From Chloroflexota bacterium (lineage in GTDB: Bacteria; Chloroflexota; UBA6077; FW602-bin22; JAMCVK01): a DNA stretch of 64,000 nucleotides. The notes below the pieces were generated by a model. The model saw only the letters and a list, made by a program, of their open reading frames with translations. It was not told where the DNA came from and ran no database searches. This document shows, piece by piece, positions 26,334 through 48,758 of the stretch (position 1 is the stretch's first letter; every line of letters starts with the position of its first letter). Location of the stretch: the NCBI GenBank assembly GCA_023475225.1, contig JAMCVK010000015.1, forward strand, positions 1 through 64,000, given 5' to 3'. The position numbers were made by a program, and so were the translations under genes.

Positions 26334-27347
26334 ATGACTATCGATGAAGCCATCGAATCGTTTCTCAACGGCCTGCGTAAATCGCCCCGCACGGTGATCA
26401 CCTATCGGGGTGGACTGAGCAAGTTCCGCGCCTACCTGAGCGAGTCCCTAGATATAGATCCCTCCTCTGCCCCCACCACGGCCCTCACCATCAACCAGGT
26501 CCTAAATTTTATGTCAAGCTTAGCGCCCAACGATGTCCGCACGGCCGGCGAGGTCTCGGCCATGCGCAGTGCCCTAACCTACCTCGCCGCCGTGCGTAAG
26601 TTCTACGCCTACCTGGTCGCCTCCGACCTGCACCCCGAGCTCTCCACCGAAAAACTCTCGCTACGCCTCAAGGACGCCCTCTATCGCTTCTCCCCTCCCC
26701 CACCCAGGGTGCGCACGGCCGACCTGGAACGGCTTTTAAGTTATGTCAAGTCCCTGCCCCCCACACAGCGACCGCACCAGGAGCTGCGCCGTCTCAAAGT
26801 GATCGCCCTCTTCCTCCTGCTCTATCGCACCGGGATGCGCATCTCCGAGCTGTGCGCCCTGCGGCGCCAGGACGTAGACCTGGACCAGGGAACAGCCTTC
26901 GTCTTTCGGGGCAAGGGGGGGAAGTCTCGCCTCACCTATTTCGATAGCGAGACGGCCGCAGCGCTGGCCGCCTACTGGCAGGCCCGTCTGGACAGCGCCC
27001 AAGCACGGGTGGGCGAGCTCCCCGCCTTCTCCGGGCGGGATAAACCGGGCGACCCTGGCCGCCCTATCAGCCCACGCACCGTAGAGGCCATCGTCGCCAC
27101 ATGCTGCCGAGCGGCCGGCGTCGAGTCAACCGTCACACCCCACACCTTTCGCCACGGCCTGGCTACCGAACTGGTGCGCCGGCGCGTGCGTGAGTCAGTG
27201 GTCCAAAGGGTCATGGGGCACGCCAGCCCAGCGACCACCCAGATCTATGTCCACCTGGTGGGCAACGAGATTCGAGAGGAGTACCAGGATGCTTTCGGCC
27301 ACTACCATCCCCCACGGCCGGATGAACCCCCCTCCACCCCAGATTGA
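26334..27347 (+). CDS. tyrosine recombinase (XerC/XerD-like)
   Basis: 337-aa site-specific recombinase. A SAM-like N-terminal domain is followed by the catalytic domain with Arg (RTGMRISELCAL), Lys (GKGGKSR), H-x-x-R (HTFRHGLATEL), His (GHASPAT) and Tyr (TQIYVHL), so it looks active. ATG 26334 follows AAGGAG; the upstream frame extends only through the leader. It has its own promoter with an embedded palindrome. It could be the chromosomal Xer enzyme, or the integrase of the local module, since a dead relative lies 0.8 kb away. Confidence 0.9.
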   Translation: MTIDEAIESFLNGLRKSPRTVITYRGGLSKFRAYLSESLDIDPSSAPTTALTINQVLNFMSSLAPNDVRTAGEVSAMRSALTYLAAVRKFYAYLVASDLHPELSTEKLSLRLKDALYRFSPPPPRVRTADLERLLSYVKSLPPTQRPHQELRRLKVIALFLLLYRTGMRISELCALRRQDVDLDQGTAFVFRGKGGKSRLTYFDSETAAALAAYWQARLDSAQARVGELPAFSGRDKPGDPGRPISPRTVEAIVATCCRAAGVESTVTPHTFRHGLATELVRRRVRESVVQRVMGHASPATTQIYVHLVGNEIREEYQDAFGHYHPPRPDEPPSTPD

Positions 27348-27400: not shown

Positions 27401-27778
27401 TTAGCCCTCTATAGTGATCCCGCGCCAGGGCATAGCCGCCAGCCTTATGTGTAGCCGAAAGAGCTCCTTCTGACTCTCAGGGATGCCCTCGTCGGAAAGG
27501 ACATCGGCCACCAGCTGCAGGGTGGGGTCGAGCGGACCGAGCCTGAGGAGAGCTGTGGGAAGGTGACCAGCCGCAGCCAGGAGCATATCGCCCTCTCCTC
27601 GCCCCAGTCCTAAGGCCTCCACTACGGCCTCCACCAGCCAGCGCTTGCCCGCCCCCCGGCTGCCCTTCTCCAGCCGATTGATATAGGCCGGGTTAACCCC
27701 CACCCGACGAGCCAGGGCATTCTGCGATAGCCCCGCCCGTTGCCGATAGCGACTCAGCAACTGTCGAAAATCCTCCAT
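27401..27778 (-). CDS. XRE-family helix-turn-helix regulator
   Basis: 125-aa protein with an N-terminal Cro/C1-type HTH (about 17-42, GLSQNALARRVGVNPAYINR) and a small C-terminal helical part without a known family. It converges with the first recombinase and diverges from the second. Its promoter (27905-27932) overlaps one arm of a 21-bp inverted repeat whose other arm lies before the second recombinase, so it probably represses itself and perhaps that gene. Confidence 0.85.
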   Translation of the reverse strand: MEDFRQLLSRYRQRAGLSQNALARRVGVNPAYINRLEKGSRGAGKRWLVEAVVEALGLGRGEGDMLLAAAGHLPTALLRLGPLDPTLQLVADVLSDEGIPESQKELFRLHIRLAAMPWRGITIEG

Positions 27779-27904
27779 TTTTCCCTAACCCCCTGAGAGC
27801 ACCGAGAAATCCTCCTCAACCCAAAAACCCCCTGCCCAGGCATCTCACCCTCGCCGAGGCGGGAAGGAACCCCAAAAGGCCCAGTAGTGTACACCCCCAC
27901 CCCG

Positions 27905-27932
27905 ATTATATCTATTATTTCCTATTTGTCAA
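27905..27932 (-). promoter_or_regulatory. promoter of the XRE regulator
   Basis: Read on the minus strand: TTGACA (27932-27927), 16-nt spacer, TATAAT (27910-27905), both perfect consensus. The left operator arm (27914-27934) covers the -35 box and spacer. Confidence 0.7.
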
Positions 27933-28028
27933 TAAAGATACCTCTCCCTCTCCTGTTGCCCTCCTTTCTTATTGACTAAGTGGTAATAAAGGCGATTTGT
28001 CAGCTATTATTGACAAATAGGAAATAAT
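27914..28028. promoter_or_regulatory. pair of inverted 21-bp operator-like arms
   Basis: The 21-bp sequence at 27914-27934 recurs as its exact reverse complement at 28008-28028, 73 bp away. The left arm covers the XRE promoter; the right arm ends 22 bp before the -35 box of the second recombinase. Similar partial words (TATTGAC at 27970-27976, ATTTGTCA near 27995-28002) lie between. The arrangement resembles a phage-type divergent control region. Confidence 0.65.
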
Positions 28029-28050
28029 GGCGGTTTTGGCCCTAAAAAGC

Positions 28051-28079
28051 TTGACAAACAGGGCGCGTGGTGCTATAAT
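28051..28079 (+). promoter_or_regulatory. consensus promoter of the second recombinase gene
   Basis: TTGACA (28051-28056), exactly 17 nt, TATAAT (28074-28079). Both boxes are perfect, the strongest-looking promoter in the window, as expected for a gene normally held repressed. Confidence 0.8.
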
Positions 28080-28089
28080 GTAGACAGAA

Positions 28090-28123
28090 TTTAGTTTCCA
28101 GAAATAAAATTCTGGAAACTAAA
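28090..28123 (+). promoter_or_regulatory. inverted repeat at the transcription start of the second recombinase gene
   Basis: Two perfect 14-bp arms (TTTAGTTTCCAGAA and its complement) flank ATAAAA, starting about +4 from the predicted transcript start and ending just before the ribosome site. It could be an operator or a leader hairpin limiting translation. Confidence 0.6.
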
Positions 28124-28136
28124 ACAGGGGGTAGCC

Positions 28137-28997
28137 TTGCCGAGGCGTAGCGGAAGCACCAGGCCCAATACCACACCACTAGCCCAGGATATACAGGCAT
28201 TCCTCGACCACTGTGTGGATGAGGAGCATTCCCTTTCCACCATCCACACCTATGGCCAGGTGCTCGCCTCCTTCACCACCTGGATGGCCCAAAACCACCC
28301 CGCGGTGACAGCTATAAGCCAGCTAAAACTGAATCAGCTGCAGCAATTTCGCCGCTACCTGCGCGAGCGCAGCGCAGCCTACGGCCGGGAGCTCAGTCCG
28401 CGCACTCAGGCCAAATACCTAGCCACCATACGATCGCTACTCCGCTACTACACCACGGTGCAGGGAGAGCTGGTGCTCCCCCCAGAGCAGATCAGGTTGC
28501 CCAGAGTGGGGAGGGAGGACGATCGCCCGCGGCGCCCCCTCAGCAGGGGTGATCTACAGCGATTACTGGAGCAGCCGGATGTCAGCAAGCCTTGGGGATT
28601 GCGTGATAGGGCTATCATCGCTCTCTTGATCAATAGCGGACTGCGCGTCAGCGAGCTGTGTTCGTTGAATCGCAGCGACGTTCGGGAAGACCTCTTAGGC
28701 CAGCATCCCTTCTTGGAGGTCACGGTATCCCCACACGCCCGCCGCATCCGCTCGATTTACCTTGATGCCTTCACCCAGGAGCAGTTGGCTGCCTACTTAG
28801 CTGTGCGCCAGGATCGCTACCCCCCACTATTCGTACGTCATAAGCCAGGAAAGGGGAAGGAAAACGACGATCCGCAGCATCGCTTAACTCGTCAGATGGT
28901 AGCGCGCATGCTTAATAAATATGCCCGAGAGGCAGGGCTTACAACACTGCCTTCAGCTCAACAGCTTCGCCGCGCCCGCTTCAGCCCGGGGCCGTAG
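28137..28997 (+). CDS. degenerate tyrosine recombinase lacking catalytic residues
   Basis: 286-aa tyrosine-recombinase relative. The SAM-like N-terminal domain and the first catalytic Arg (SGLRVSELCSL) are present, but the Lys region reads VSPHARRIRSIYLD, the H-x-x-R box reads QQLRR, and the protein ends before the catalytic Tyr. In the G-run at the end, a one-base shift would continue the family-like GAVVIIQHL before another stop, so the 3' end is both shifted and cut. TTG 28137 follows AGGGGG. Its consensus promoter and operator-like repeats suggest it may still be made, perhaps as a DNA-binding protein; a decaying pseudogene is the alternative. Confidence 0.7.
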   Translation: MPRRSGSTRPNTTPLAQDIQAFLDHCVDEEHSLSTIHTYGQVLASFTTWMAQNHPAVTAISQLKLNQLQQFRRYLRERSAAYGRELSPRTQAKYLATIRSLLRYYTTVQGELVLPPEQIRLPRVGREDDRPRRPLSRGDLQRLLEQPDVSKPWGLRDRAIIALLINSGLRVSELCSLNRSDVREDLLGQHPFLEVTVSPHARRIRSIYLDAFTQEQLAAYLAVRQDRYPPLFVRHKPGKGKENDDPQHRLTRQMVARMLNKYAREAGLTTLPSAQQLRRARFSPGP

Positions 28998-29031: not shown

Positions 29032-30483
29032 GTGCATATGGGAGGGGTTGAGGGGACAGAGAACATCGTCGTCCGACCGGTCTATCTCCGCGCCGTCAAC
29101 GCCATCGTGCAACCTGAGCGACAGGCACCCTGCACGGAATACTTCCTGCATCAGTGGCTGTCCCGCCTTGGCGCCCTACGCTGGGGCCTGGTCTTGACCC
29201 TGCGGACCATCTGCACCCAGCGGCAGACAGACGGCACCAATCGGGGCGAGGTCTCCCGGGGGCAACTATCTGAGATGCTCGGTGTGCATGAGGCGACCAT
29301 CACTCGTCTCCTGGCCACCGTCCCCAGCCCCACCTTCCCAGGCTGGCGAGAGATAGACCCCGCCCAGAGCGACGACGCCGAGAAGACAATATATCTGGCA
29401 AAATTCATCCCTCGACTGCGCTATAAATACGTGCGCGATGCTACGGCCGGCGTAACGCGCCGCATCGGCTACATCATCGATGTCGTCATGGATGATCCCC
29501 TCACCCCTGAGGATGAGGAGCGGTTGGCCGTAGCCCTGGCTGCTCAAATCCTCCACGGGGGGCATTGTCCATTGGACGAAGTAAAAGAACAGAATGATCT
29601 TTCAGCCAGTGTTATCCCCCAATCCTCCCCTTCACTGCCCCTTTCCCAAGGAGAGTCGTTCCCTCATAACACGCAAAATCTACTTTCACACTCAGAGGTG
29701 ATAGCGCATGATGCTATTTCACGCCCAGATGTAAGGAAACACAATGCTTCTTCTCAGGCAAGCCTGAACGCACACAATGCTCCCCCAGAGCCTCTCAAGG
29801 GGCAGGGTGGGCCCGTATTAACATTAACTTATAACTACATGGGAATAACCATAAACCGGAATCTTAAACGAAGAACAGAGATCAGAAGGGCCGTCAAACC
29901 GCTGGCCGAGTACGCTGCTCGACGCTTACACGATGAGCACTCCTTGGCAATGTTCTATTCTACCCTTCTCCAGCTCTACCCCGATCACCTCGAGCTCTTT
30001 GGGCAGTCCTTAGACGAGGCCATCGTGGCCGGGGAGGGAAATGCTGCCCTCAACATGGGGGCCTTTTTTGTCCGCTCACTGAAGCGGCTGGCAGCTGACC
30101 TTGGGGTACCCCTGCGTCTAGGTGCCCCAAGCGGTACGGAGAGAACTGCTCTGGGGGAAGAGGAAGAAAGTGAAAGGGAAGCCGAAGGTGGGGTGGGGGG
30201 GGTGCTCATCCCTAACGTGGCTTTACCAGGCACAAGGCTGTCCGGTCAGCAGGTCTGGCGGTCGGCCTTAGAGGAGCTGCGCGCTCAGACCGGGCGCGCC
30301 GCCTATGAGATGTGGCTACGCAATTGTCACATCGTTGGGACTGATGGCCAGGTGGTCATCATCGGCGTGCCCAATCAATTTGCTCTGGATTGGCTCAGCG
30401 AGCGCCTGGCCGGATCGATCGAGACAGCTCTCAGCCGCGTCATCGGTCAGAGGGTTAAGGTGAGATGTGAAGTTTATGGCTAA
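29032..30483 (+). CDS. HTH protein with C-terminal DnaA domain-I-like segment
   Basis: 483-aa protein. An N-terminal replication-protein-like region includes a helix-turn-helix (RGEVSRGQLSEMLGVHEATITR). A poorly conserved linker (about 185-275) follows. The last 80 residues (VWRSALEELRAQTGRAAYEMWL ... NQFALDWLSERLAGSIETAL) match the DnaA N-terminal domain, which binds DnaB helicase and partner proteins. No AAA+ domain is present. GTG 29032 lies 7 nt after AAAGGAG; ATG 29038 is the alternative. It may be a replication or loading adaptor of a mobile unit. Confidence 0.7.
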   Translation: MHMGGVEGTENIVVRPVYLRAVNAIVQPERQAPCTEYFLHQWLSRLGALRWGLVLTLRTICTQRQTDGTNRGEVSRGQLSEMLGVHEATITRLLATVPSPTFPGWREIDPAQSDDAEKTIYLAKFIPRLRYKYVRDATAGVTRRIGYIIDVVMDDPLTPEDEERLAVALAAQILHGGHCPLDEVKEQNDLSASVIPQSSPSLPLSQGESFPHNTQNLLSHSEVIAHDAISRPDVRKHNASSQASLNAHNAPPEPLKGQGGPVLTLTYNYMGITINRNLKRRTEIRRAVKPLAEYAARRLHDEHSLAMFYSTLLQLYPDHLELFGQSLDEAIVAGEGNAALNMGAFFVRSLKRLAADLGVPLRLGAPSGTERTALGEEEESEREAEGGVGGVLIPNVALPGTRLSGQQVWRSALEELRAQTGRAAYEMWLRNCHIVGTDGQVVIIGVPNQFALDWLSERLAGSIETALSRVIGQRVKVRCEVYG

Positions 30484-30492
30484 AAGAAGGGG

Positions 30493-31191
30493 GTGTTCAA
30501 AGTGATACAGAGACCGGTCGTACTTCTAGTTGATACAGAGGCTACTCGACGTCAAGAGGTCAGCACTGCCTTAAGGGGGGTAGGTTGGCTGGTGGAGGAG
30601 AGGGGGAATAGTGCTGAGGCACCGCAGCTACTTTGGGATAGGAACATCGATGCCGTGGTGATCGCCCTGCCTCCCAGCGAGGGGCATGCTCTCTGTCGAC
30701 TACTCCGCCGTTCGGCCGACGTGCCCATCTTGCTGGTAGGAAATACGCGGCAGATAGACAGAGTGCTGCGCGCCTTTGAGTGTGGGGCCGATGACTATAT
30801 AGGTGAGCCGATCGACTCACGCGAGATGATCGCCCGCCTAACGGCCCTGTTGCGCCGAACGGCGTTGGCCGAGCGGCGGCAGCAACGGCGTATCCGCATC
30901 GATGGACTCCAGATCGACTCCCTGGAGCGCCGCGTCATTGTCGCTGGCCGGGAGGTGAACCTCTCCCCAACGGAGTTCGATCTATTATACCTGCTGGCCA
31001 GCAATCCCGGTACTCCACTGCAAAGGCGGCTGCTGTACCATAGGATTTGGAATAGCCCTTACCAGGGCGATACCAACCTGATTGATGTTTGCGTACGCCG
31101 CTTGCGCCGCAAGATAGAGCGGAAGCCTTCGGCCCCGCAGTGGGTGAAGACGGTACGTGGGGTTGGCTACATGTTCGCTGGAACGAGCTAA
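30493..31191 (+). CDS. OmpR-type response regulator with a degenerate receiver
   Basis: 232-aa protein: receiver-like domain (1-125) and OmpR/PhoB winged helix (130-230, NLSPTEFDLLYLLASNPG ... VRRLRRKIE ... VRGVGYMF). The phospho-acceptor Asp is replaced (DAVVIALP), the acidic pair is reduced (VDTE) and the conserved Lys is Glu (YIGEP). It cannot be phosphorylated in the usual way, so it is probably constitutive or controlled by partners. No histidine kinase is nearby. GTG 30493 follows AGAAGG, 9 bp after the preceding gene. Confidence 0.85.
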   Translation: MFKVIQRPVVLLVDTEATRRQEVSTALRGVGWLVEERGNSAEAPQLLWDRNIDAVVIALPPSEGHALCRLLRRSADVPILLVGNTRQIDRVLRAFECGADDYIGEPIDSREMIARLTALLRRTALAERRQQRRIRIDGLQIDSLERRVIVAGREVNLSPTEFDLLYLLASNPGTPLQRRLLYHRIWNSPYQGDTNLIDVCVRRLRRKIERKPSAPQWVKTVRGVGYMFAGTS

Positions 31192-31506: not shown

Positions 31507-31536
31507 TTTACAGGGAGCAGGGCATTTTGTTATAAT
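31507..31536 (+). promoter_or_regulatory. promoter of the type IV pilus operon
   Basis: TTTACA (31507-31512), 18-nt spacer, TATAAT (31531-31536), placed 31 bp before pilB. Upstream, TCCGC-TTCG-GCGGA (31470-31483) is a small UUCG hairpin after the two-CW gene. Confidence 0.65.
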
Positions 31537-34536: not shown

Positions 34537-34584
34537 ATGTCCTGGCTAGAGGTGCCACATATTGGGCTTGGGGATGGATGGTGA
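34537..34584 (+). CDS. 15-codon upstream ORF (possible leader peptide)
   Basis: A GGAGGAG site (34527-34533) precedes ATG 34537; the 15-codon frame MSWLEVPHIGLGDGW ends with TGA at 34582-34584, overlapping the ATG at 34584 of the Kelch gene (TGATG). The best ribosome site of this junction belongs to the short ORF, so it probably couples translation to the large gene. No function in the peptide itself is visible. Confidence 0.45.
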   Translation: MSWLEVPHIGLGDGW

Positions 34585-37500
34585 TGAAAAGGTGGCCATG
34601 GTCATGGGCCAGCATGAGGCTCCACTTTATCCTTCTTTTCTCCATGGTGGTGCTTCTTCTGGGGGGTTCCCCCGGCGTTGTGGCTATGACCCGATCCTAT
34701 ACGACGGTGTCCGATTTCGCCAGTGGGCTTAAGGAAAACGGCAATCTTGTCATCACGCGCACAGGGGATGGTGAATTGGAGCTGTCCCGCCGGGGCTTCC
34801 TAAAGAGCTGGACCTCAACCGCCTCTCTTAATAGCGGTAGGCTGGGCGCCGCTGTTGTGGCGGCTGGTAATCACCTTTATGTCATCGGTGGTTGGAATGG
34901 GGATTATCTGAACTCAGTCGAAATAGCCGCCATTCAGCCTGATGGCACGCTGAGCAGTTGGCTCTATACGAGCCCCTTGACGGTGAAAAGATCTTTCCAT
35001 GCGGCTGTCGTGGCCGATGGTTATCTTTATGTCCTTGGTGGCAGTGATAGCACTGGGACGCTGTCATCCATTGAGCGGGCGGCCATGCGGGGCGATGGCA
35101 GTTTAGCCCCCTGGACTACGTTGAGCAGTCGCCTGACGACCGCCAGGCAAGGGTCGGCTGTCGTGGTCGTCGAAGGGAGGATATATATCATCGGTGGATC
35201 CGATAGCGCTATGTCCCTCGGCTTAGCCAGGGATCTGGTCACCACTGATCCTTCCCTCTTGGGAGAGGATGAGCCGCAGCGAGTTGGCACCGCAGCGATA
35301 AGCGTTCTCAGCAGCGTTGAATGGGCGACGATCAATGCCGATGGTAGCCTTGGTTCTTGGGCAAGCACTAGCCCCCTGGCGATGGGGCGGGTTTTCACAG
35401 CGGGCGTCGTCGCTTCTGATGTCAACGGCTATAAATACATCTATGTCCTTGGTGGCTGGAATAACGGCTACCTGGCCACTGTAGAGCGGGCCTGGGTGCG
35501 CGACGATGGGACGCTGGAGAGCTGGAGCGCGACGGCGTCACTGCGGATGAAACGGGGGTACCACGCGGCTGTCGTGGCCAATGGCTATATTTACGCCCTC
35601 GGTGGCTACGATGGCACCCATCTCAGCGCCGTTGAACGGGCGACGCTTAACGCCGATGGTACGCTGGGTGGCTGGATGACGAGCGCCGCATTGAGCACAG
35701 CCAGACGGGGACTGGGAGGGGTAGCCGTTGATGGACGGCTGTACACCCTGGGCGGCTATGATGGAAACAGCGTTCTGGGCAGCGTCGAGCTGGCGGTAGT
35801 GAAGAGTGAGGGTTCTCTAGGTGGATGGTTTTCAGCGACCTCCCTGGGGACAGCGCGCTATGGCGCGGCGGCCGTAGTCGTCAATGACCGCATTTATGTC
35901 CTTGGTGGCTTCGATACTGACTGGAACGTTTTGAGTAGCGTGGAGATGTCTGTCCTCAATGCGGATGGTACTTTGGGGCCCTGGACGACGACGACGGCGT
36001 TGATCACCCCCACGGCCCAATTGTCCGCCGTGGCCTGGAACGGTTATATCTACGCTATTGGTGGTTGGAACAACACTGATGGCTATCTTGGCATTGTCCA
36101 ACGGGCAACGGTGAATCAGGATGGGACGCTGGGCAATTGGACTGCTGTGAGCGCCTTGAACACTAAACGGGCCCAGCATGCGGCAGTAGTGACCAACGGT
36201 CGCCTCTATGTCAGTGGTGGATATAATGCGAGCGATGGTGTACTCTCCAGTCTCGAACGGGCCACGCTAAACTTTGACAATACGGTGAGTGCCTGGACAC
36301 CTTTGCCTACCAGCCTGAATACTCCCAGGTATAGTCACGCCTTGGTGGTGGCTGGCGGTAACATCTACGCCATAGGGGGTTACCGTGGGGATGCCTATCT
36401 TAAGAGTGTGGAGAGGGCGACGGTTGATCTGCGGAGCGGCGACTTATCTCCATGGCAAACGGAGTCTTCCTTGCAACTGGCCCGGTCAGGGGTGGCCGCC
36501 GTGGCCCACGGGCATTTTCTCTATGCCCTCGGTGGAGCGATCGGTCCGGAGGATAGAAAAGACCCTGGCGTTGAGCGCGTCACGGTTAAGCCCGATGGAC
36601 GATTGGGCGATTGGCAGATAATCTCCTCCTTGAGCACGGCCAGGAGTGGGGCAGCGGCCGTAGTGGCCAATGGCTACATCTATGTCTTTGCCGGTCACAC
36701 AGGGACGAAGCCCCTCGCTAGCGTGGAGGGGGCGGCCCTGACCACTGATGGAAGCCTGGAAGGATGGGGGCGCGCCAGCGATATGGTGAGGGCCAGGTAT
36801 GGGCATGGCACGGTGGCGACCAGCACTTGGCTCTACAGCGTGGGAGGAGATGATGGGAACAATGCCCTCAGCAGCGTGGAGCGGGCTCCCATCAATAGTG
36901 ATGGGAGCCTTGGCCCCTGGCAGGAGACGAGTCCCCTGGCTTATGCCCACAGTGGGGCGGCAGTGGCCATGGCCACCGTAATAACGGGGACGACGACCGC
37001 TAAATACATCTACGCTATAGGGGGACGGGATGGCCAGCGCTACTATGACCGGGTGGAAGGGGCGGTTATCGCTGTTGATGGTTCCTTGGGGACATGGCAG
37101 GAGGGACCGCATCTGACCCGACCTCGCTACGAGGCCACGGCGGTGGTGATGGGCAATTATCTTTATGTCCTGGGTGGATATGACCAGGAGGGCAATGTCC
37201 TCAACAGCGTCGAACGAGCAGCTATTAAGACTGACGGCACCTTAAGTTCTTGGGGGCTGGTCTCCAGCAGTATGCGCACGCCCCGCTACGGCGCCGCGGC
37301 CGTCGTGGCCGACGGCTTCCTCTACGTCTTTGGGGGTAAGGATGGGACGGGGTTAAGCGGCTCTGTGGAACGGGCCTGGATAGGCCCTGATGGGGGACTG
37401 GGGACCTGGCAGGTGGTGTCTATCCTCAATGTGCCCCGCTACCGTTCGGCCGCAGCGTATCTAAATGGCTTTCTCTACGTCCTTGGTGGCGATGGTGGGG

Positions 37501-38054
37501 GGCCACTAAGTAGTGTGGAATGGGCGCGTCCCAACACCGATGGTTCGGTGAGCAGCTGGAATTTCACCAGCTTGCTCCTTGTGGGGAGGAAGGGGCTGAG
37601 CGCTACGGTGAGTGGTGGCAACATATACGTTAGCGGCGGGCAGGATGGCGGTGTTGTTCTTAAAAGCGTGGAACGCACGGGGGCCAGCGCCCTCCTGCCC
37701 CCTGGCGGTAGCTATACAGGCCATGCGGATTTTGCTGTCGATGTTTCGATCGATTCCTTGTCCTGGGATGGTACGGCCAACGATGGTCTAATTGAGGTGC
37801 GTTATCGGACGGCGCCAAATAGTACGGCCCGTTACGGAGAATGGACGCCCTACTCCACGATAACGCCCGTCAGTGTCGGCGTCAACGCCAGGTACCTTGA
37901 ATATCAACTACGGCTGCGACGGGCGGGTGATCTGGCCGTACCGCCGCTCGTACGGGAGGTTCGCCTGGAAGCGAGCGCCCTGCCAGCCACGCCCACCTGG
38001 GTGTATAAAGCGTATTTCCCGCTCGTGATGAAGGGTTACGTCAGCGGTTGGTGA
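34584..38054 (+). CDS. giant secreted Kelch-repeat protein
   Basis: 1156-aa exported protein. A signal peptide (basic start, hydrophobic stretch LHFILLFSMVVLLLGG) is followed by 18 Kelch-type repeats of about 55-60 residues, each with a Y-x-x-G-G core (YVIGGWNGDYLNSVE, YALGGYDGTHLSAVE and so on), then a beta domain and the tail YKAYFPLVMKGYVSGW. Eighteen repeats would make three six-bladed propellers. ATG 34584 is preferred over 34578 because of the TGATG coupling. Being inside the pilus operon, it may be a surface adhesin or a pilus accessory; its ligand is unknown. Confidence 0.85.
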   Translation: MKRWPWSWASMRLHFILLFSMVVLLLGGSPGVVAMTRSYTTVSDFASGLKENGNLVITRTGDGELELSRRGFLKSWTSTASLNSGRLGAAVVAAGNHLYVIGGWNGDYLNSVEIAAIQPDGTLSSWLYTSPLTVKRSFHAAVVADGYLYVLGGSDSTGTLSSIERAAMRGDGSLAPWTTLSSRLTTARQGSAVVVVEGRIYIIGGSDSAMSLGLARDLVTTDPSLLGEDEPQRVGTAAISVLSSVEWATINADGSLGSWASTSPLAMGRVFTAGVVASDVNGYKYIYVLGGWNNGYLATVERAWVRDDGTLESWSATASLRMKRGYHAAVVANGYIYALGGYDGTHLSAVERATLNADGTLGGWMTSAALSTARRGLGGVAVDGRLYTLGGYDGNSVLGSVELAVVKSEGSLGGWFSATSLGTARYGAAAVVVNDRIYVLGGFDTDWNVLSSVEMSVLNADGTLGPWTTTTALITPTAQLSAVAWNGYIYAIGGWNNTDGYLGIVQRATVNQDGTLGNWTAVSALNTKRAQHAAVVTNGRLYVSGGYNASDGVLSSLERATLNFDNTVSAWTPLPTSLNTPRYSHALVVAGGNIYAIGGYRGDAYLKSVERATVDLRSGDLSPWQTESSLQLARSGVAAVAHGHFLYALGGAIGPEDRKDPGVERVTVKPDGRLGDWQIISSLSTARSGAAAVVANGYIYVFAGHTGTKPLASVEGAALTTDGSLEGWGRASDMVRARYGHGTVATSTWLYSVGGDDGNNALSSVERAPINSDGSLGPWQETSPLAYAHSGAAVAMATVITGTTTAKYIYAIGGRDGQRYYDRVEGAVIAVDGSLGTWQEGPHLTRPRYEATAVVMGNYLYVLGGYDQEGNVLNSVERAAIKTDGTLSSWGLVSSSMRTPRYGAAAVVADGFLYVFGGKDGTGLSGSVERAWIGPDGGLGTWQVVSILNVPRYRSAAAYLNGFLYVLGGDGGGPLSSVEWARPNTDGSVSSWNFTSLLLVGRKGLSATVSGGNIYVSGGQDGGVVLKSVERTGASALLPPGGSYTGHADFAVDVSIDSLSWDGTANDGLIEVRYRTAPNSTARYGEWTPYSTITPVSVGVNARYLEYQLRLRRAGDLAVPPLVREVRLEASALPATPTWVYKAYFPLVMKGYVSGW

Positions 38055-38076: not shown

Positions 38077-40020
38077 ATGCAGCTCGATCTAGCCCGGCGC
38101 AGGCCGGAGGCTCGTCACAGGTTTATCGATATTAATCTCCTACCACCGGAATATCGGCGGGCAGCGTTATCAACGCTGCTCATCGTGTTAGGGCTTTTAG
38201 CGATCATCGGGCTCTTTTTATCCCTATCTCTTTACCAGGTCAAGGTGAGGGTCGATGGGGAGATCACCCGTTTGGGGGACCAACTCCGCCAAGCACAGGG
38301 GGAGACCAAGAAGCTGAAGGCCGCTGAGGGGGAGGCCAAAAAGCTGCAAGAGGCCATCAACCAGGCGAAACAGTCCTTGAAGGTGATGCAGCAGGACTAC
38401 CAGGTGCTGGCGACACGCCGGGTCGATTGGTCGAATATCCTGCGCACCATCGTCACTACCACTTCCCCCGATATCCGTTTCGAGGCCATCAATCAGAGCG
38501 GTCCGGTGATTACCTTGAAGGGAACAGCCGGCGATTATGCCAGCGTGGTGCTTTATAGTGATGAATTGCGGAAGTCGAAGATCTTCCAGCGAGTCTCCAT
38601 CCAATCGCTGACGGAGGGTGGACCGGCGCCTGCTGAGCAACCAACCCCGGTAGGGGTTCCCACTCCGACGGTTGCTCCTCCGCCAGCTACGGTACCACCC
38701 ACCCCGACGCGCCTTATCCCCACCCCGACCCCTACAAGGGTGGCTACCCCTGGGTCGCCGACGCCAACCCCGACGGTCACGCCTACCAGGCCACCGGCCA
38801 CTCCGACACCTACGCCGACGCCGGCCTATGACTACATCGTCCTCTCTAAGACGATGAGCCCTTACCCGGACAGCGAGGGCGATAGCAGCTCCATCCGGGG
38901 CAAGGTGATCGATCTGGCTGGTAACCTGATCCCTGGGCTGCAATTTAAGATCAGCAGCGAGGGGCTACCACCCTGGTCGGCCATAACGCCGCCACTGGGC
39001 TCATCCCCCTCTGATGGCACCTTCGCTTTCTACGTTACGAAAGGCACGTTCAGCGTAGAGGTGCTCAGTGGGAGGTCACAAAAGGCGACGGGTCTCTTCA
39101 CAGGCGCCGCGGGGGTGCGGGGTGTGAACGTTTGGGAGGTCGTCTTTCAGAAGGTTACGCCGGGCACACCAGTACCGCCCACTCCGACCCCTACCCCCAC
39201 GGCCACGCCAACGCCTGGTGCGACCAACATCGCCCTTGGCCGACCGGCCAGCGCTTCAGCGACGGCCAGCGGCAGTGCAGCGGCGCTGGCCGTTGATGGG
39301 GACACCAACACGCTGTGGAATGCTGGAACCTACCCATCAGCCTGGTGGGAGGTCGATCTGGGAACCCCCTCACAGGTTACCGGCATTGAATTAGTGGTCA
39401 GCCAGGCGCCCAGTGGCTATACGACACATGAGGTTTGGACCTATACGGCGGCGGGAAGCGGCTCTCTGGTCTATACCTTCGGTGGGAATACAAGCGATGG
39501 ACAGGTTCTCAGTTATACCTTCAGTTCGCCCCTCAGTGGGGTAAGCCGAGTTAGGATCAACACTACCAGCAGCCCGAGTTGGGTGGCCTGGCGGGAGGTC
39601 AGGGTCTATGGCTTTACGCCCACTCCTACTCCTACCCCTACGGCCACCCTGACGCCCACGTCTACCCCCACACCTACGCCAACGCCGACGAGCACGCCCC
39701 TTCCACCGACGCCGCTGCCCACGGCCACCCCAACGCCGACCCCCACACCCACGCGAACGCCGACCGTCGTTGCCTCCGCGCTGGGGTACTCATCACTCGA
39801 GCACCTGTTGGCCAGCGGCAGCTCAGCGGTCAGCGCTTCGGACGGGGATGTAGTCCGAGGGCCGAGATCGGCCCGGCCAGCCCTTGGATCCGACATGGCG
39901 GCGAAAGATATACTCGCCGGAAAGCTGGCCGCTCCGGCCCCCGCTCTGCTGGCTCCTCAGGGGAGGACCACCGTATCCTTCGTCTTGGTCCTGGAATTGC
40001 GCGCGAGGACTGGACAATGA
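38077..40020 (+). CDS. pilN: PilN-like pilus assembly protein fused to a discoidin (F5/8C) domain
   Basis: 647-aa protein. Residues 1-190 are PilN: cytoplasmic start with DINLLPPEYR (PilM-binding type), one membrane helix (about 33-56), coiled coil and ferredoxin-like fold. Then come a TP-rich linker, a carboxypeptidase-regulatory-like beta domain (about 250-360), another linker, an F5/8 type C domain (about 383-512, NIALGRPASASATASGS ... WWEVDLG) and a long TP linker with a tail. Ordinary PilN has about 200 residues. Because PilN faces outward from the membrane, the extra domains would lie in or beyond the wall and may bind glycans. GGGAGGAG precedes the start. Confidence 0.82.
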   Translation: MQLDLARRRPEARHRFIDINLLPPEYRRAALSTLLIVLGLLAIIGLFLSLSLYQVKVRVDGEITRLGDQLRQAQGETKKLKAAEGEAKKLQEAINQAKQSLKVMQQDYQVLATRRVDWSNILRTIVTTTSPDIRFEAINQSGPVITLKGTAGDYASVVLYSDELRKSKIFQRVSIQSLTEGGPAPAEQPTPVGVPTPTVAPPPATVPPTPTRLIPTPTPTRVATPGSPTPTPTVTPTRPPATPTPTPTPAYDYIVLSKTMSPYPDSEGDSSSIRGKVIDLAGNLIPGLQFKISSEGLPPWSAITPPLGSSPSDGTFAFYVTKGTFSVEVLSGRSQKATGLFTGAAGVRGVNVWEVVFQKVTPGTPVPPTPTPTPTATPTPGATNIALGRPASASATASGSAAALAVDGDTNTLWNAGTYPSAWWEVDLGTPSQVTGIELVVSQAPSGYTTHEVWTYTAAGSGSLVYTFGGNTSDGQVLSYTFSSPLSGVSRVRINTTSSPSWVAWREVRVYGFTPTPTPTPTATLTPTSTPTPTPTPTSTPLPPTPLPTATPTPTPTPTRTPTVVASALGYSSLEHLLASGSSAVSASDGDVVRGPRSARPALGSDMAAKDILAGKLAAPAPALLAPQGRTTVSFVLVLELRARTGQ

Positions 40021-40556
40021 AGCTTTCACCATCCACTCGATTCCTCCTGGGGACGACGATCCTGCTGGTGGTCGTGAATCTGGCCCTCAGCGCCCTTTAT
40101 ATTCGAACGGAGCAACGTCGCTCTGCCCTGTCCCAGCAGGTGATCAGCGCCACAGCCGAGCTGGAAAAGACCAGGAAGGAGATGGACCTGACAGCGCTCA
40201 AGAAGGAGCTGGCTGAGACGCAAGCCCAGCTGGCTTCACCGCAGGCCTCCTTTCCTAGGGATGTTCAGGGCATCGAGCTACTGGATGAGGTGCTCTATCT
40301 GGCCGAGGAGAGTCGGGTGCAGATCGTCAGCATACAGTCCCTGGGCAGCGGCACAGAGAAATTGGGGGCTACCGAGTATCGCCTTATGCGCTATAGCCTG
40401 CAAGTCAGGGCCAACTTGCCTGACTTGATTATCTTCTTGAATAAGATGGAACGGAGTCGCTTCACTACTCTGGTGATGGATAACCTGGTCATCAGCTTGA
40501 CGGCCAAAACTGCTGAGATGGGACTGCAGCTGGTTGTCTACGCCCAGAAAACATGA
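40017..40556 (+). CDS. pilO: PilO-like pilus alignment protein
   Basis: 179-aa bitopic membrane protein: short cytoplasmic start, one helix (about 9-28), coiled coil, and a small ferredoxin-like periplasmic domain ending LQLVVYAQKT. It follows the PilN gene with an ATGA overlap, as expected for the PilN-PilO heterodimer. An in-frame ATG at 39579 lies deep within pilN and is not used. No PilP or PilQ follows. Confidence 0.85.
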   Translation: MKLSPSTRFLLGTTILLVVVNLALSALYIRTEQRRSALSQQVISATAELEKTRKEMDLTALKKELAETQAQLASPQASFPRDVQGIELLDEVLYLAEESRVQIVSIQSLGSGTEKLGATEYRLMRYSLQVRANLPDLIIFLNKMERSRFTTLVMDNLVISLTAKTAEMGLQLVVYAQKT

Positions 40557-40571
40557 TAAGGAGCAGGACGA

Positions 40572-41342
40572 ATGAATGATACCTCGCCGGATAAGACGCC
40601 GGACACAAGCGATCTCTCCCTTCGGCAGGCTCAAATCTACGCTAAAGAGTTGAATGTCCTCTTTCAGGAGGAACGCAAGAGGCGGCAGGAGCTGGAGGAG
40701 GAGAAACGGCGGCTGGAACAGCGCATACGCGAGTTGATGGCCTTAAATGCCCTTTTTCAGGAGCAGCAGGCCAAGATGTTCCAGATACAGCAGTCTTATG
40801 GATGGCTGGAGGCCATTCTCCAGGAGGTGGTGGCTACGCTGGACGCCCGGGATCCAGGCAGGCAAGGGCATTCAACACGAGTGGCCCAATTGGCCAGCGA
40901 CCTGGCCTCCAGGATTGGCTTAACCGATGAGGGGTTGCCCTTAGCCGCCCGCTTGCACGACATAGGCTATATCCTGATCCCTGATGGTATCCTGCTGCGC
41001 CGTGATTCCTTGAGTCCAGCAGAGGAGGCGGTGTTTAAGCAGCATCCGCTCATTGGGGATACAATTTTACAGGCGGCAGGACTGCCTTTGGAGGTCAGGC
41101 TGACCGTGCGCCATCACCACGAGAATTACGATGGGAGTGGCTACCCTGATGGGTTGGCTGGTGAGCAGATAGGGCTATCCGCTCGCCTCATCGCGGTCAT
41201 CGAGGCTTATGAGGAGATGTCGACCTGGCGACCGTATCGCCCGCCGCTATCCAGGGAGCAGAGCATGCTTAAGTTGCGAGAGGGGGCGGGCATACAGTAC
41301 GACCCATTCATTGTTAAGTCCTTGGGAGAGATACTAGGATGA
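40572..41342 (+). CDS. HD-GYP domain c-di-GMP phosphodiesterase
   Basis: 256-aa protein. An N-terminal coiled coil (about 20-75) precedes an HD-GYP domain: HSTRVAQLA, the HD doublet in LHDIGYILIP, HHHENYDGSGYPDGLAG (GYP) and the late Asp region. It should hydrolyse c-di-GMP. Its place between pilO and pilM, and the MshEN domain of PilB, suggest local control of pilus activity. AAGGAG supports the start; it overlaps pilM by ATGA. No sensor domain is visible, so the coiled coil may dock it on pilus parts. Confidence 0.9.
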   Translation: MNDTSPDKTPDTSDLSLRQAQIYAKELNVLFQEERKRRQELEEEKRRLEQRIRELMALNALFQEQQAKMFQIQQSYGWLEAILQEVVATLDARDPGRQGHSTRVAQLASDLASRIGLTDEGLPLAARLHDIGYILIPDGILLRRDSLSPAEEAVFKQHPLIGDTILQAAGLPLEVRLTVRHHHENYDGSGYPDGLAGEQIGLSARLIAVIEAYEEMSTWRPYRPPLSREQSMLKLREGAGIQYDPFIVKSLGEILG

Positions 41343-42235
41343 GGGTGAAATTGCCCCTCTTGTGGCCGAGCTCCGTTGTTTCCCTGAGCATTGAGGGGAG
41401 CAGCTTACGGCTCCTCAGTTGTAAGGGTGGCCGTATCCAGTCCTGGGTAAGCATCCCGCTTAACCCCAGGCTGCTGCGCGGTGGCTTCATCGCTGACCCG
41501 CTGGCGCTCAGCGGGGTGATCCGCACGGCCATGGAGAAGGCGCATCTTTCGCCAGGGAGGGTCATTGGCGGTCTAACTGGACTACAATCGGTTTCACGTT
41601 TAATATCCCTCCCCAAAGTGGCCGCGGGCAGCCTGGAGGCGATCGTTCAACGGGAGGCGCGCCGCTCGCTAGCGATTTCTCTGGAAGGGAATTACCTCTA
41701 TTGGCAGGCACTTGATGGTCGCGGAGAAGAGCTCCAGGTTTTCGTCCTGGCCGTGCCCAAGGAACCCCTGCTGGCTTTCCTGGCGGCCTTGCGCGGCGCG
41801 GGGCTGCGGCCGCGGGCGATCGATTTGCGGCCGCTAGCCCTGGCCAGGGCTGTAGCCCAACCACAGGCCATCATCGCTAATGCGGAGAGTAACAGCGTAG
41901 ATGTGGTCGTCGTTGTCGACGCTGTGCCAGTTCTGGTGCACACCTCCTTTCTGGGCGATGAACCGCTGCCCCCTGAATATGTACGCGATCGCTTGACCGA
42001 TGAGTTGCTGCGGGCCATCACTTTTTATAACGATACGCATAGGGGCAGCCCCTTAGCGCCCGATATCCCGCTATATCTTACGGGTGAGATGGCCAATGAA
42101 ACAGAGTTGGTGGAGAGCATACCAGCGTTGACGGGGCATCCGCTGGCTATCCCTCAGCCCCCCTTGCCCTATCCGGCGGGCTTTCCGCTGGCTCTCTACA
42201 TGGTGAATATCGGCTTAATTTTGAAGGAGGTCTAA
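41339..42235 (+). CDS. pilM: PilM-like actin-fold pilus assembly protein
   Basis: 298-aa protein with the divergent actin-like fold of PilM: opening VVSLSIEGSSLRLLS, a middle domain with REARRSLAISLEG, and a final region with YLTGEMAN. PilM binds the cytoplasmic tail of PilN and links to PilB. The order N-O-HDGYP-M differs from the usual M-N-O. Sequence conservation is modest, so the name rests partly on position. It overlaps the HD-GYP gene by 4 bp. Confidence 0.78.
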   Translation: MRVKLPLLWPSSVVSLSIEGSSLRLLSCKGGRIQSWVSIPLNPRLLRGGFIADPLALSGVIRTAMEKAHLSPGRVIGGLTGLQSVSRLISLPKVAAGSLEAIVQREARRSLAISLEGNYLYWQALDGRGEELQVFVLAVPKEPLLAFLAALRGAGLRPRAIDLRPLALARAVAQPQAIIANAESNSVDVVVVVDAVPVLVHTSFLGDEPLPPEYVRDRLTDELLRAITFYNDTHRGSPLAPDIPLYLTGEMANETELVESIPALTGHPLAIPQPPLPYPAGFPLALYMVNIGLILKEV

Positions 42236-42241
42236 GCAGGC

Positions 42242-42979
42242 TTGGAGGCACTCATCTTGGGGTTAGCTGGTCTGGTCATTGGCAGCTTTCTCAATGTAGT
42301 CATCGATCGCCTGCCACGAGGTGAGTCCATCGTCAATCCCCCTTCGCATTGTGATGTCTGTCAGCAGCGGCTAGGGGTGGTTGATCTGGTGCCGCTGGTC
42401 AGCTACCTTTGGCTGCGGGGCCATTGCCGCTATTGCGGGGCGAGGATCCCCCGGCGGGTGCCGCTGGTGGAGCTGGCCAGCGGATCCTTGTTCGTTCTGT
42501 TATGGTATAGATATGGCTGGGGGCTTCCCCTGGCGGTGACTGTCCTGTATAGCTGTATCCTCCTTGTCATTTTGGTCATCGATCTGGAGCAGCAGCTCAT
42601 CCTGAATAAGGTCATCTACCCAGCCATCGTCCTGTCCCTTGCCCTCTCCTGGCTGGGGCCGGGTCTGCCTAGCTCTTTGCTCGGAGGGATCAGTGCTTCC
42701 CTTCTGCTCCTTGGGCCGGCCCTGATTTACAAAGGGGGGATGGGTGGGGGGGACATCAAGCTGGCTGCCTTCATTGGACTGGTCACCGGCTTCCCCCTCG
42801 TGTTGGTGGCCGTTTTTTTGTCCCTCGTCGGAGGGGGTTTGCTGGCGACGGCCTTGTTAGTGTTGCGGCGGAAGGGGCGCAAGGAGGCGATCACCTTCGG
42901 TCCTTTCTTGGCCGGTGGGGCGGTAGCTACGCTGTTCTGGGGGGAACAGCTTTGGCGCTGGTACATGGGCCGCTTTTAG
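42242..42979 (+). CDS. pilD: prepilin peptidase PilD
   Basis: 245-aa membrane aspartic protease/methylase. The N-terminal domain has the C-x-x-C ... C-x-x-C zinc-type cysteines (CDVCQQRLG and CRYCG), followed by membrane helices containing the GGGDIKLAAFIG active-site motif and the earlier LVIDLEQQLI Asp. It cleaves and N-methylates the pilins encoded at 23221, 23583 and 44522. TTG 42242 is used, 11 nt after GGAGG. Confidence 0.92.
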   Translation: MEALILGLAGLVIGSFLNVVIDRLPRGESIVNPPSHCDVCQQRLGVVDLVPLVSYLWLRGHCRYCGARIPRRVPLVELASGSLFVLLWYRYGWGLPLAVTVLYSCILLVILVIDLEQQLILNKVIYPAIVLSLALSWLGPGLPSSLLGGISASLLLLGPALIYKGGMGGGDIKLAAFIGLVTGFPLVLVAVFLSLVGGGLLATALLVLRRKGRKEAITFGPFLAGGAVATLFWGEQLWRWYMGRF

Positions 42980-42989
42980 GGAGGGAACG

Positions 42990-44051
42990 ATGCATATAAA
43001 TGATCTTTTGGCTCTTATGATTCAGAGGGAGGCTTCCGACCTGCATCTAAAGGTGCCCTCTCCACCTGTGTTGCGGGTCGACGGGGTGCTCCAGCCCCTG
43101 ACCGACTTGCCGCGCCTGACCCCCCAGGATATGGAGGAGATCTTTGCCGCACTCGTCTCTGCGGAGCAAAGGGAACGATTCCGTCAGGAGCTGGAATTAG
43201 ATTTCGCCTATAGCCTGGCGGGGGTGGCCCGCTTCAGGGTCAATGCCCATATGCAGCGGGGGACTGTTGGACTGGCTATTCGGGTTGTTCCCCTCCAGGT
43301 GCTCACCATCGAGCAGCTTGGCCTGCCGGAGGCTTGTAAGACGCTGGCTATGCGGCCACGGGGCTTGGTTCTCGTCACTGGCCCAACTGGTAGTGGCAAG
43401 TCTACCACCTTAGCGGCGATGATCGATTATATCAATGAGAATGCTCAGGTTCATATCGTGACCATAGAGGATCCGATTGAGTTCCTCCATCGGGATAAGA
43501 AAGCAGCCATTGCCCAGCGGGAGGTCGGTAGCGATACGCAGTCCTTCGCGGCGGCCCTGAAACATGTCCTTCGTCAGGACCCGGATGTGATTCTCTTAGG
43601 GGAGATGCGGGACCTGGAGACGATCGCCACGGCCCTCACGGCCGCTGAGACAGGGCACCTGGTGTTGGCTACCCTGCACACGACCAGTGCGCCGCAGACG
43701 ATGGACCGCATCATAGACGTGTTTCCGCCGCACCAGCAGGAACAGGTGCGCCTCCAGCTGTCGATGGTGCTGGAGGGTGTATTATGTCAACAGCTCATGC
43801 CCAGGGCCGATGGGAGGGGGCGTATCGCCGCTATTGAGGTGATGGTGGCCAACCCAGCCATCCGCAACCTCATCCGTGAGGGCAAGACCTTCCAGATCCC
43901 CAGCGTTATGCAGATGAGTGGGCAGCAGGGCATGCAGACCCTCGACCAGGCGCTGTGGGCCCTGGTGCAGAAGCGGCTGGTGACTATGGAGGAGGCCCTG
44001 TTGCGGGCGAGCAATCCGAACGAGTTGCGCCGCCTGGTGGGGGTATTCTAA
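42990..44051 (+). CDS. pilT: type IV pilus retraction ATPase PilT
   Basis: 353-aa PilT ATPase. Walker A GPTGSGKSTTLAA, Asp-box EDPIEFLH, Walker B DVILLGEMRDLETI and the PilT-typical AIRNLIREGKTFQI segment are intact. It disassembles pili, giving twitching or DNA-uptake pulling force. GGGAGGG precedes the start. It ends the operon; a repeat-rich 470-bp gap follows. Confidence 0.95.
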   Translation: MHINDLLALMIQREASDLHLKVPSPPVLRVDGVLQPLTDLPRLTPQDMEEIFAALVSAEQRERFRQELELDFAYSLAGVARFRVNAHMQRGTVGLAIRVVPLQVLTIEQLGLPEACKTLAMRPRGLVLVTGPTGSGKSTTLAAMIDYINENAQVHIVTIEDPIEFLHRDKKAAIAQREVGSDTQSFAAALKHVLRQDPDVILLGEMRDLETIATALTAAETGHLVLATLHTTSAPQTMDRIIDVFPPHQQEQVRLQLSMVLEGVLCQQLMPRADGRGRIAAIEVMVANPAIRNLIREGKTFQIPSVMQMSGQQGMQTLDQALWALVQKRLVTMEEALLRASNPNELRRLVGVF

Positions 44052-46259: not shown

Positions 46260-47772
46260 CATTAGTGTCCCACAATTCGCAGTTAGCGAGGCTCTCATAA
46301 AGAGAATAGGCTTATTGTAACACACTGCCTTGCGGCTGATCCCTCCCGCCGCCTTTGCCTTCCTCAATAGAGATAGGGCAGGGGATGAGACCGAGCCTCT
46401 TTTGCTTCTATTCTATCATCCCTCTTACGCTGCCAGGGCCTCCCCCTCCATGAAACGCAACCTCAACTTCAGCAGATGGTTCGCCCCCTTCTTCGTCCAA
46501 CGCATCCCTTGCCCCTTCATCCGCCGCTTGATCACCAGGTCAGCCTGCTTCTCGATGGCCCCACTTCCCACTACTAGCACCTTCTGCCCTTCCGCCGATA
46601 AGTGCGCCCTCAGCAGGTCCACGCCGTACAACCCCTGCCAATTGCCCTCTAAGTACCCTTGTAAGTCCTCCAGCCGCTCTCGCACCCCTTCTCCCAAGGC
46701 TAGCCGTAACTTCACCGCCCGCAAGATCTCCTCCGCCCTGCGTTGCCGCAAACACCCCACCAGATGCTCCGCCACCTCGGGCTTGGCCCCGAAGGACTCC
46801 CAGATCTTCCGCTCTAAATGCCACCAGTCCAACTGATAGACGGCTTTGTACCGATCCCCTCCCGCTAGGGGCTCTATCCACGACGCTCCATCACCTACCA
46901 ATAGCACATGCTTGGCCCGACTCAACCCCAGATGCTTCTCTCCCCTCAGAAACAGCCTCTCCCCAAATTCCTCTGCCTCCTCTACCCCACCATACCTCAC
47001 CCGCTCCACTAGCCTGTACCGTTTGTGCTTCGCCGTCTCACTCTCCAACTCTCGCCCACTGAACAGCACCCCCAGGCGTACCTCAAAGCGATCCTCCGCT
47101 TCCCCCTGCGCTTTCAACATAATCCCATCTACCTCCGATACCACGATCTCCCGTTCCTTCTCATCTCGTTCCGGCACCACCCCCTCCTCAAATACCGCCT
47201 TCCACTCCTCTTCCTCTTTGGCCACTATCTTCTCTCCCTCCCTCTGGGCCATCCACCATAGCATGCGATGGTTTACTTCCTCGCCTACCTCTTCCGAAAA
47301 TATGGCTGCTGAGGGACGGAAGGGCAGTTGGGTCACGAAGTAGAGGGCTCGCTCCTTCACCCAAGGAGTGACATGCTGACGAGATTCCAAGCTTAGCACT
47401 CCATCCAGGGGGCATTCGGTGTGATCAGGGCCCTCCTTCACCCGCCAGCGCTGTAACCTAACCCACCCAAAGCGGGTGAGGAGTTGACGCTGCTCTAGCC
47501 GTTGGCGCTTCACCGTCTTCCCTTTTTCTTCCAGAGTGCGCTGCTCCACTTCCTGACAGGCCCTGACCAGCATCTGCTTTCGCCACCTTACGCAACTGGG
47601 AATGGATTTGCCCCTCCAAAGAGGCGACACTCGGATCGTCCAGTGATATAATTACTTTGGCGGTCAATTCGATCGTCGGCATAGGCTCTCCTCTGTAAGT
47701 ATTTGGTTTCTCTTATATGAGAGCCTATCGCTTTTTTCCCCCACTTGCAACTGCGAACTCTTGGACGCATCC
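46260..47772 (-). mobile_element. ISLre2-type insertion sequence (copy 2)
   Basis: The element is bounded on the left by the end shared with copy 1 (46260). On the right, a related terminal region lies at about 47710-47772. The ends read inward share GTCC, TTCGCAGTT and GGCTCTCATA words in the same order, as imperfect terminal inverted repeats. It encodes one transposase with a frameshift. No clear target duplication is visible. Confidence 0.75.
46425..47682 (-). pseudogene. UPF0236/ISLre2-family transposase, frameshifted
   Basis: About 418 codons if rejoined. The start MPTIELTAKVIISLDDPSVA (ATG 47682) runs to HSQLRKVAK, and the rest continues in the next frame from QMLVRACQEVEQ (junction near 47577, one extra base). 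Family features include SEVDGIMLKAQGE, VGDGASWIEPLA, YQLDWWHLERKI and VVGSGAIEKQADLVIKRRMKGQGMRW given here only in outline. The shift may inactivate it, be a sequencing error, or be programmed; the local GCGAAAGC is not a classic slippery site. Confidence 0.75.
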
Positions 47773-47861: not shown

Positions 47862-48746
47862 GTGCCTGGCAGGCCTTCGCCGATCTACCTTGATAATGCA
47901 CCGCCTAAGAACTTACCTCTCTTTGGGAATGGCCTGGAGGTGAGACCGCGCAGAAAACTTATCGCCTTCGGGTGGTATGGCGGCAAGTATTCCCACTTAG
48001 ATTGGCTGCTTCCACTTCTTCCAAAGTGTCACCACTACTGCGAACCGTTTGGCGGATCAGCAGCAGTTCTCTTGAACAGGGACCCATCTCCGGTCGAAAC
48101 GTTTAACGATATAGACGGAGAAGTAGTCAACTTCTTCCGCGTACTTAGAAACAATACGGATCGTCTCCTGAATGCCATCGCCTTGACTCCATTTTCAAGA
48201 GAGGAATTCTTCATTGCTTGTTCAACAAATGGTAGAAAAATCTCTGACCTAGAGCGTGCTAGGCGTTTCTTCATCCGAGCTCGCCAGGCTAGGACAGGCT
48301 TAGCGCAAACCGCCTCTATAGGACGCTGGGCAAACTGCAAGAACACGACCCGAGCAGGGATGTCAGGCGTTGTCTCACGCTGGCTTGGTAGCGTTGAGAT
48401 GTTACCGGAAATTGCTGAGCGTCTTCTTCGAGTCCAGATCGAAAACAGGCCAGCAATTGAAGTGATACGCCTTTACGACAATAAGGATACTTTATTCTAC
48501 TGCGACCCTCCTTATCCCCACGATGCCCGAGGCGATGATAAAGCATATGGATACGAAATGACCGACCAGGATCACGTAGAGTTGGCTCAGGTTCTTCACC
48601 AGGTCAGGGGGATGGTTGCTGTCTCGGGTTATCGCTGCGATCTGATGGACGAACTCTATAAAGACTTCAGGCGCTATGACGCTCCAACAAAGATATGTCA
48701 CTCGGTTAAGAAACCCCGGATGGAAGCGCTTTGGATGAACTACTAA
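47862..48746 (+). CDS. DNA adenine methyltransferase (Dam/M.DpnM-like)
   Basis: 294-aa D12-class N6-adenine methylase. Motifs are FGWYGGKYSHLDWLLPLLP (SAM-binding), CEPFGGSAAVLLNR and the catalytic DPPY (215-218). GTG 47862 follows a near-perfect AAAGGAGGTGA. It is followed 12 bp later by a SacI-like restriction enzyme, so it is the likely protecting methylase of a type II system. The specificity cannot be read from sequence. Confidence 0.88.
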   Translation: MPGRPSPIYLDNAPPKNLPLFGNGLEVRPRRKLIAFGWYGGKYSHLDWLLPLLPKCHHYCEPFGGSAAVLLNRDPSPVETFNDIDGEVVNFFRVLRNNTDRLLNAIALTPFSREEFFIACSTNGRKISDLERARRFFIRARQARTGLAQTASIGRWANCKNTTRAGMSGVVSRWLGSVEMLPEIAERLLRVQIENRPAIEVIRLYDNKDTLFYCDPPYPHDARGDDKAYGYEMTDQDHVELAQVLHQVRGMVAVSGYRCDLMDELYKDFRRYDAPTKICHSVKKPRMEALWMNY

Positions 48747-48758
48747 GCGTGCCCGCAG

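Follow-up and report, generated by a model that had tools for sequence, protein, structure and literature searches.

A divergent XRE–recombinase locus in a Chloroflexota bacterium with a dif-like palindrome behind the promoter of a truncated Xer-type gene

Does the region between a small XRE-type regulator gene and a divergent recombinase gene in a Chloroflexota bacterium form a single bistable switch, or do its repeats serve the two genes separately? The locus lies within a 64,000-nucleotide stretch of DNA (hereafter the window), and a preliminary description had presented it as phage-like, with a complete layout for an auto-repressed bistable pair. The repeat arms, the promoters, the truncation of the recombinase and a 34-bp repeat at the start of its gene are confirmed; bistability is unsupported. 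From sequence comparison we consider it reasonably probable that the locus comprises two adjoining self-regulated units, in which the XRE protein acts on three operators (O1-O3) and the dead Xer-type protein on a dif-like operator.

Candidate operators of the XRE regulator

The XRE side of the locus contains the following features.

27401..27778, minus strand: XRE/HTH_31 regulator of 125 amino acids (Pfam HTH_31, 1.8e-13), with orthologues throughout the class
27905..27932, minus strand: XRE gene promoter, TTGACA-16-TATAAT, 12/12 match to the sigma-70 consensus
27914..27935, minus strand: candidate operator O1, over the -35 and spacer of the XRE promoter
27969..27989, plus strand: candidate operator O2, a degenerate copy
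28007..28028, plus strand: candidate operator O3, with the sequence of O1 in the opposite orientation

O1 and O3 form a perfect inverted repeat (100% complementary, 71 nt between the arms). Exact-complement arms had been reported earlier with a length of 21 bp; they are 22 bp long. When 27880-28140 was shuffled 1000 times with dinucleotide content preserved, perfect inverted repeats reached 15 bp at most, and the 64-kb window contains no further inverted repeat whose arms are 16 bp or longer and lie within 250 bp. O2, 81% alike, lies between the two arms. The placement of the arms is as originally described: the -35 and spacer of the consensus XRE promoter sit within O1, and O3 precedes the recombinase promoter, ending 22 bp from its -35 box without overlap. 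The centre of O3 falls at about -68, a figure that rests on a recombinase transcription start inferred at 7 nt past the -10 box. Only three sequences in the 2.74-Mb genome fit TTATTGACN5GGNAATAA perfectly, and each of them lies in this intergenic region.

We looked for the operator upstream of XRE relatives. Such relatives were present in 42 of 61 genomes (E <= 0.001), many of them weak matches in much longer ORFs that resemble generic HTH matches. Among the 28 strong relatives (E <= 1e-15, own gene excluded), 24 were used for operator counts; two with only 62 and 75 bp upstream (L044 and L046) were left out and two were kept for a held-out test. The symmetric pattern TATTGAC-N5-GTCAATA, composed after the upstream sequences had been viewed, occurred at 10 or more of 14 matches in 17/24 upstream regions versus 1/121 controls, which were upstream regions of other ORFs in the same loci. 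The fairer test, a pattern built from the window only, gave 18/24 versus 3/121 at threshold 10. The loci share descent, so that independence is overstated in both comparisons. In a scan of spacers from 0 to 12, 5 alone stood out, and the site's TTGAC occupies, in several relatives as in the window, the position expected for a -35 box. Neither held-out locus reached the operator threshold (scores 9 and 7). A search of the plasmid collection returned no match to the XRE gene.

Since the operator is common to the orthologues and covers the gene's own -35 box, the XRE protein is predicted to bind these sites and repress itself. TATTGAC-N5-GTCAATA is very probably its own site. Autorepression, which the preliminary description had proposed, is likely and draws support from the orthologue comparison, and conservation of the arms in relatives that keep the gene, named there as a test, was found in the 17 of 24 and in neither held-out locus. 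In the first unit, the XRE protein would bind O1, O2 and O3 (TATTGAC-N5-GNNAATA), would repress itself from O1, across its own -35 region, and from O3 may modulate the opposite promoter with either sign. The arrangement resembles that of XRE/CI-type autorepressors in having several near-palindromic operators, one of them over the repressor's own -35, but it has no Cro-like partner and the divergent promoter is free of operators.

The truncated recombinase and the palindrome behind its promoter

The opposite gene is preceded by its own promoter and a second, separate repeat.

28051..28079, plus strand: recombinase promoter, likewise of sigma-70 type, TTGACA-17-TATAAT, 12/12, with TG before the -10; the same promoter is present in contig L093 of the relative described below
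28090..28123, no strand: perfect 34-bp inverted repeat (14-6-14) with a 28-bp core at 28093-28120 in dif geometry (11-6-11)
28137..28997, plus strand: dead Xer-type tyrosine recombinase, 286 amino acids, TTG start, stopping at the HxxR motif

The term "dead recombinase" was apt: the C-terminal catalytic residues are missing. Of the catalytic set R-K-H-R-H/W-Y, the Lys, His, His/Trp and Tyr are absent or changed and the first Arg is kept; the protein is without the catalytic lysine loop, the second histidine and the tyrosine. It is related to XerD (PDB 1a0p) and scores 97.4 bits against a XerD cutoff of 329.6, so that the NCBIfam cutoff is missed. An AlphaFold model was weak (pLDDT 61.6), with XerA, integrases and XerD as its best PDB matches.

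We found 23 matches to the recombinase in 17 of 29 class genomes, 21 of them in open frames of 313-441 amino acids. The truncated form was limited to the other two, the window and the Chloroflexi MAG FK_Sedi_B_Bin.47 (G004). A search of further genome contigs yielded one locus, the G004 contig; viral contigs yielded three weak loci, and the plasmid and phage collections only matches below 60% identity. The two truncated proteins stop at the same point, although their sequences are 54% identical and differ at 46% of residues. Differences by codon position were 0.41/0.25/0.66 over 279 codons, as expected under constraint, and the pair thus shows signs of selection at the protein level.

An inverted repeat with 14-bp arms at the start of the recombinase gene had been noted before, and it is perfect. 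Its 28-bp core and the G004 counterpart each match the B. subtilis dif sequence (PMC3025954) at 19 of 28 positions, and the two palindromes, on both strands, were the sole sites scoring at least 19 in 881,032 positions (~440 kb). Seeded with the dif sequences of E. coli and F. alni, the scan gave them 15-16 and 12-13 of 28 (15 and 13 for the window palindrome alone) and did not rank them. The motif TTAGTTTNCAG-N10-CTGNAAACTAA, allowing <=3 mismatches, had a single occurrence in each of two class genomes out of 29, both times immediately after the promoter of the truncated recombinase gene; a backwards control pattern occurred in 1 of 29. The palindrome is therefore one site per genome and not an element repeated at several promoters.

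The G004 locus shares with the window both the truncated recombinase and the gene after it, and has a TTGACA-17-TATAAT promoter followed by a related palindrome at nearly equal distance. Between the two loci, 26 of 32 positions agree in the palindrome, 34 of 60 in the promoter-bearing stretch upstream and 11 of 40 in the leader just downstream. At one position in the arm, a C/G pair has become A/T together with its partner, and pairing is kept. No XRE orthologue was found in G004 (best E 5.1e-4; the MAG is 88% complete), nor were TTATTGAC arms seen upstream of its recombinase gene. The presence of promoter and palindrome in a genome with neither suggests that the arms travel with the XRE gene and the palindrome with the dead recombinase.

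Inverted repeats were also sought upstream of 10 recombinase genes. Strong ones lay at the promoter of the dead gene in the window, of its G004 relative and of the neighbouring G004 recombinase; the intact recombinase of the window had only short ones, further upstream, and three more recombinase regions of the same genome had none upstream. The G004 neighbour's repeat, a long palindrome at 6428-6460 of L093, directly follows a TACAAT box at the probable transcription start of a full-length recombinase gene divergent from the dead one, and is unlike dif in sequence.

In the second unit, a recombinase-derived protein that has lost its catalytic residues and kept its DNA-binding parts would bind the dif-like 28-bp palindrome, which begins a few bases past the inferred transcription start, and would repress its own operon, the replication-initiator-like gene downstream included if the operon extends as we infer. 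A symmetric Xer-type site at the start of a gene for a non-cutting Xer protein is best read as a self-repression operator. This reading is favoured by the occurrence of the motif solely with the truncated recombinase and its conservation beside a diverged downstream leader, by the top rank of both palindromes against B. subtilis dif, by the shared truncation point and signs of constraint despite 46% divergence, and by the precedents MrpR and IntS (below). It is weakened by the small number of genomes that combine truncated recombinase and palindrome, just two, by the failure of the E. coli and F. alni seeds to rank the sites, and by the leader RNA, in which a hairpin would give the same appearance. 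The negative result at both held-out XRE loci and the weak structure model likewise weigh on the two-unit reading as a whole. The protein may also bind DNA less tightly now that its catalytic domain lacks the end.

Alternative readings of the locus

The most serious alternative, though in our judgement an unlikely one, is that the 34-bp repeat acts as RNA: a 5' hairpin that would protect or tune the recombinase-operon mRNA, with the recombinase a relic that has no role there. A strong stem would stand at the very 5' end of the transcript in both genomes (the 55-nt leader folds at -23.3 kcal/mol), and the paired change between the genomes preserves an RNA stem as well as a DNA palindrome. Against this reading, the 28-bp core is the best B. 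subtilis dif match in all the positions scanned, and the motif occurs solely with the dead recombinase, in two genomes of two. Moreover, inner pairs have been lost although the spacing is maintained, and Rfam gave matches only below gathering scores.

Less probable still is that the palindrome is a working dif site, of the chromosome or of an integrated plasmid-like element, cut by intact Xer-type enzymes with the dead protein as passenger or accessory. The dif geometry, the single copy per genome, an intact Xer-like gene adjoining the site both in the window and in G004, and an adjacent replication-initiator-like gene would all suit such a site. Against it, the palindrome is perfect, unlike the three dif seeds given in PMC3025954; local GC skew goes from negative to positive at the locus, opposite to the expectation for a terminus, in a genome that consists of 50 contigs; and there is no second copy for excision or inversion. 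Canonical dif patterns matched in 5 of 29 and 4 of 29 class genomes. The one canonical candidate in the window's own genome was dropped since it lies inside an ORF, and no chromosomal dif was placed.

We regard as improbable the lambda-like switch of the preliminary description, in which the XRE protein would repress the recombinase operon and the recombinase product the XRE gene. The divergent genes, with three XRE operators and two consensus promoters between them, have the outline of such a switch, but there is no sign of mutual repression: the recombinase promoter is free of XRE sites, and no second dif-like copy was found near the XRE promoter. The repeat at the recombinase start is instead a separate dif-like site that persists, together with its promoter, in a relative with no XRE orthologue detected. 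A decaying mobile-element remnant without present function, which the truncation and the recombinase and replication-initiator-like proteins might suggest, is the least probable reading, given that both promoters match the consensus, the ORFs are intact, the proteins show signs of constraint and the palindrome is conserved between two families.

Neighbouring genes and known systems

Three further genes flank the pair.

26337..27347, plus strand: full-length Xer-like recombinase that has the catalytic motifs, transcribed towards the XRE gene
29038..30483, plus strand: replication-initiator-like protein with a C-terminal DnaA_N domain match, resembling genes beside XRE relatives
30493..31191, plus strand: OmpR-type response regulator, possibly on the same transcript

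Directly downstream of the XRE relative, three genomes (G003, G018 and G051) have a gene with a DnaD_N or Phage_rep_O-like part and DnaA_N, one DnaA_N match and the Phage_rep_O match being just below the Pfam cutoff. Loci L035, L036 and L044 are those noted for an XRE relative followed directly by a gene that fuses such a part to DnaA_N. G003 also has a ParA-type gene near its XRE relative. These XRE-initiator neighbourhoods suggest a flavour of replication control. The epithet "phage-like" fits the kind of proteins present, but no phage structural genes were seen around the locus.

After the response regulator, the window continues with type IV pilus genes (PilB, PilC, PilN-, PilM-, prepilin peptidase and PilT-like). 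The G004 copy of the DnaA_N gene runs across two contig ends, the translations of which have a stretch in common, and FliH- and FliI-like genes follow; in G003 the XRE-DnaA_N pair is followed by flagellar rod and FliF genes. This pilus/flagellar pattern comprises three genomes. An 11/12 promoter match with TG before the -10 (31507-31536) stands directly before pilB, which makes it less likely that the recombinase operon includes the pilus genes and suggests a promoter of their own. PilB was found at E <= 1e-100 in the window's own genome only (1 of 29 class genomes). A plasmid-derived module is thinkable by analogy with Thermomicrobium roseum, whose flagellar genes are reported to lie on a megaplasmid.

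Repressors derived from dead tyrosine recombinases are already known. MrpR, the master repressor of the SPbeta prophage of Bacillus subtilis, has the tyrosine-recombinase fold and no recombinase function and represses by binding DNA (PMC10516654); the window protein is likewise a relative without catalytic residues and a putative DNA-binding repressor. MrpR retains the whole fold, K169 and Y304 included, whereas the window protein lacks the end of the catalytic domain; and MrpR binds SPBRE elements within its prophage, whereas here there is one site per genome and we saw no prophage. IntS of prophage KplE1 offers a precedent for negative autoregulation, with attL overlapping its promoter (PMC2951348), much as the promoter of the dead recombinase carries a dif-like site. 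IntS, however, is an active integrase that represses through sites near -35 and -10 and tolerates mutation of the core site with repression unaltered. With XerC/XerD-dif the locus shares a 28-bp 11-6-11 site whose arms are near the XerD type of B. subtilis; it differs in a protein that lacks catalytic residues and falls far below the XerD cutoff, and in a site that is a perfect palindrome on a promoter. Authors studying P. aeruginosa mention, as a possibility, transcriptional regulation by XerC at sites beyond dif.

Our literature search, with most subscription papers outside its scope, turned up no account of a dead Xer gene with a dif-like operator. Such an operator would be the noteworthy part of the locus, and the window case would be a new, chromosomal and more truncated variant of the MrpR theme. 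If the reading is true, an enzyme has been turned into a gene switch, a recombinase with a site like that of chromosome resolution on its own promoter. More tentatively, and with somewhat less confidence than in the two-unit reading, we propose that the dead Xer protein and a dif site turned operator constitute a chromosomal transcription factor drawn from the chromosome-resolution machinery, one that would control a replication-initiator-like gene in a module adjoined, depending on the lineage, by type IV pilus or by flagellar genes. For bacteria, the locus provides a small and testable example in which protein, site and promoter adjoin one another and another genome is at hand for comparison.

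Two regions further along the window may be recorded. Within the pilus cluster, a 1158-amino-acid Kelch-repeat protein (34578-38054) precedes a run at 38077-44051 that includes a PilN-like protein with an F5/8 type C match, an HD-domain protein, a PilM-like protein, a prepilin peptidase and a PilT-like protein. At 47862-49673, a D12 adenine methyltransferase and a SacI-like endonuclease form a probable type II restriction-modification pair, in a lower-GC stretch that adjoins a UPF0236 gene at 46425-47630.
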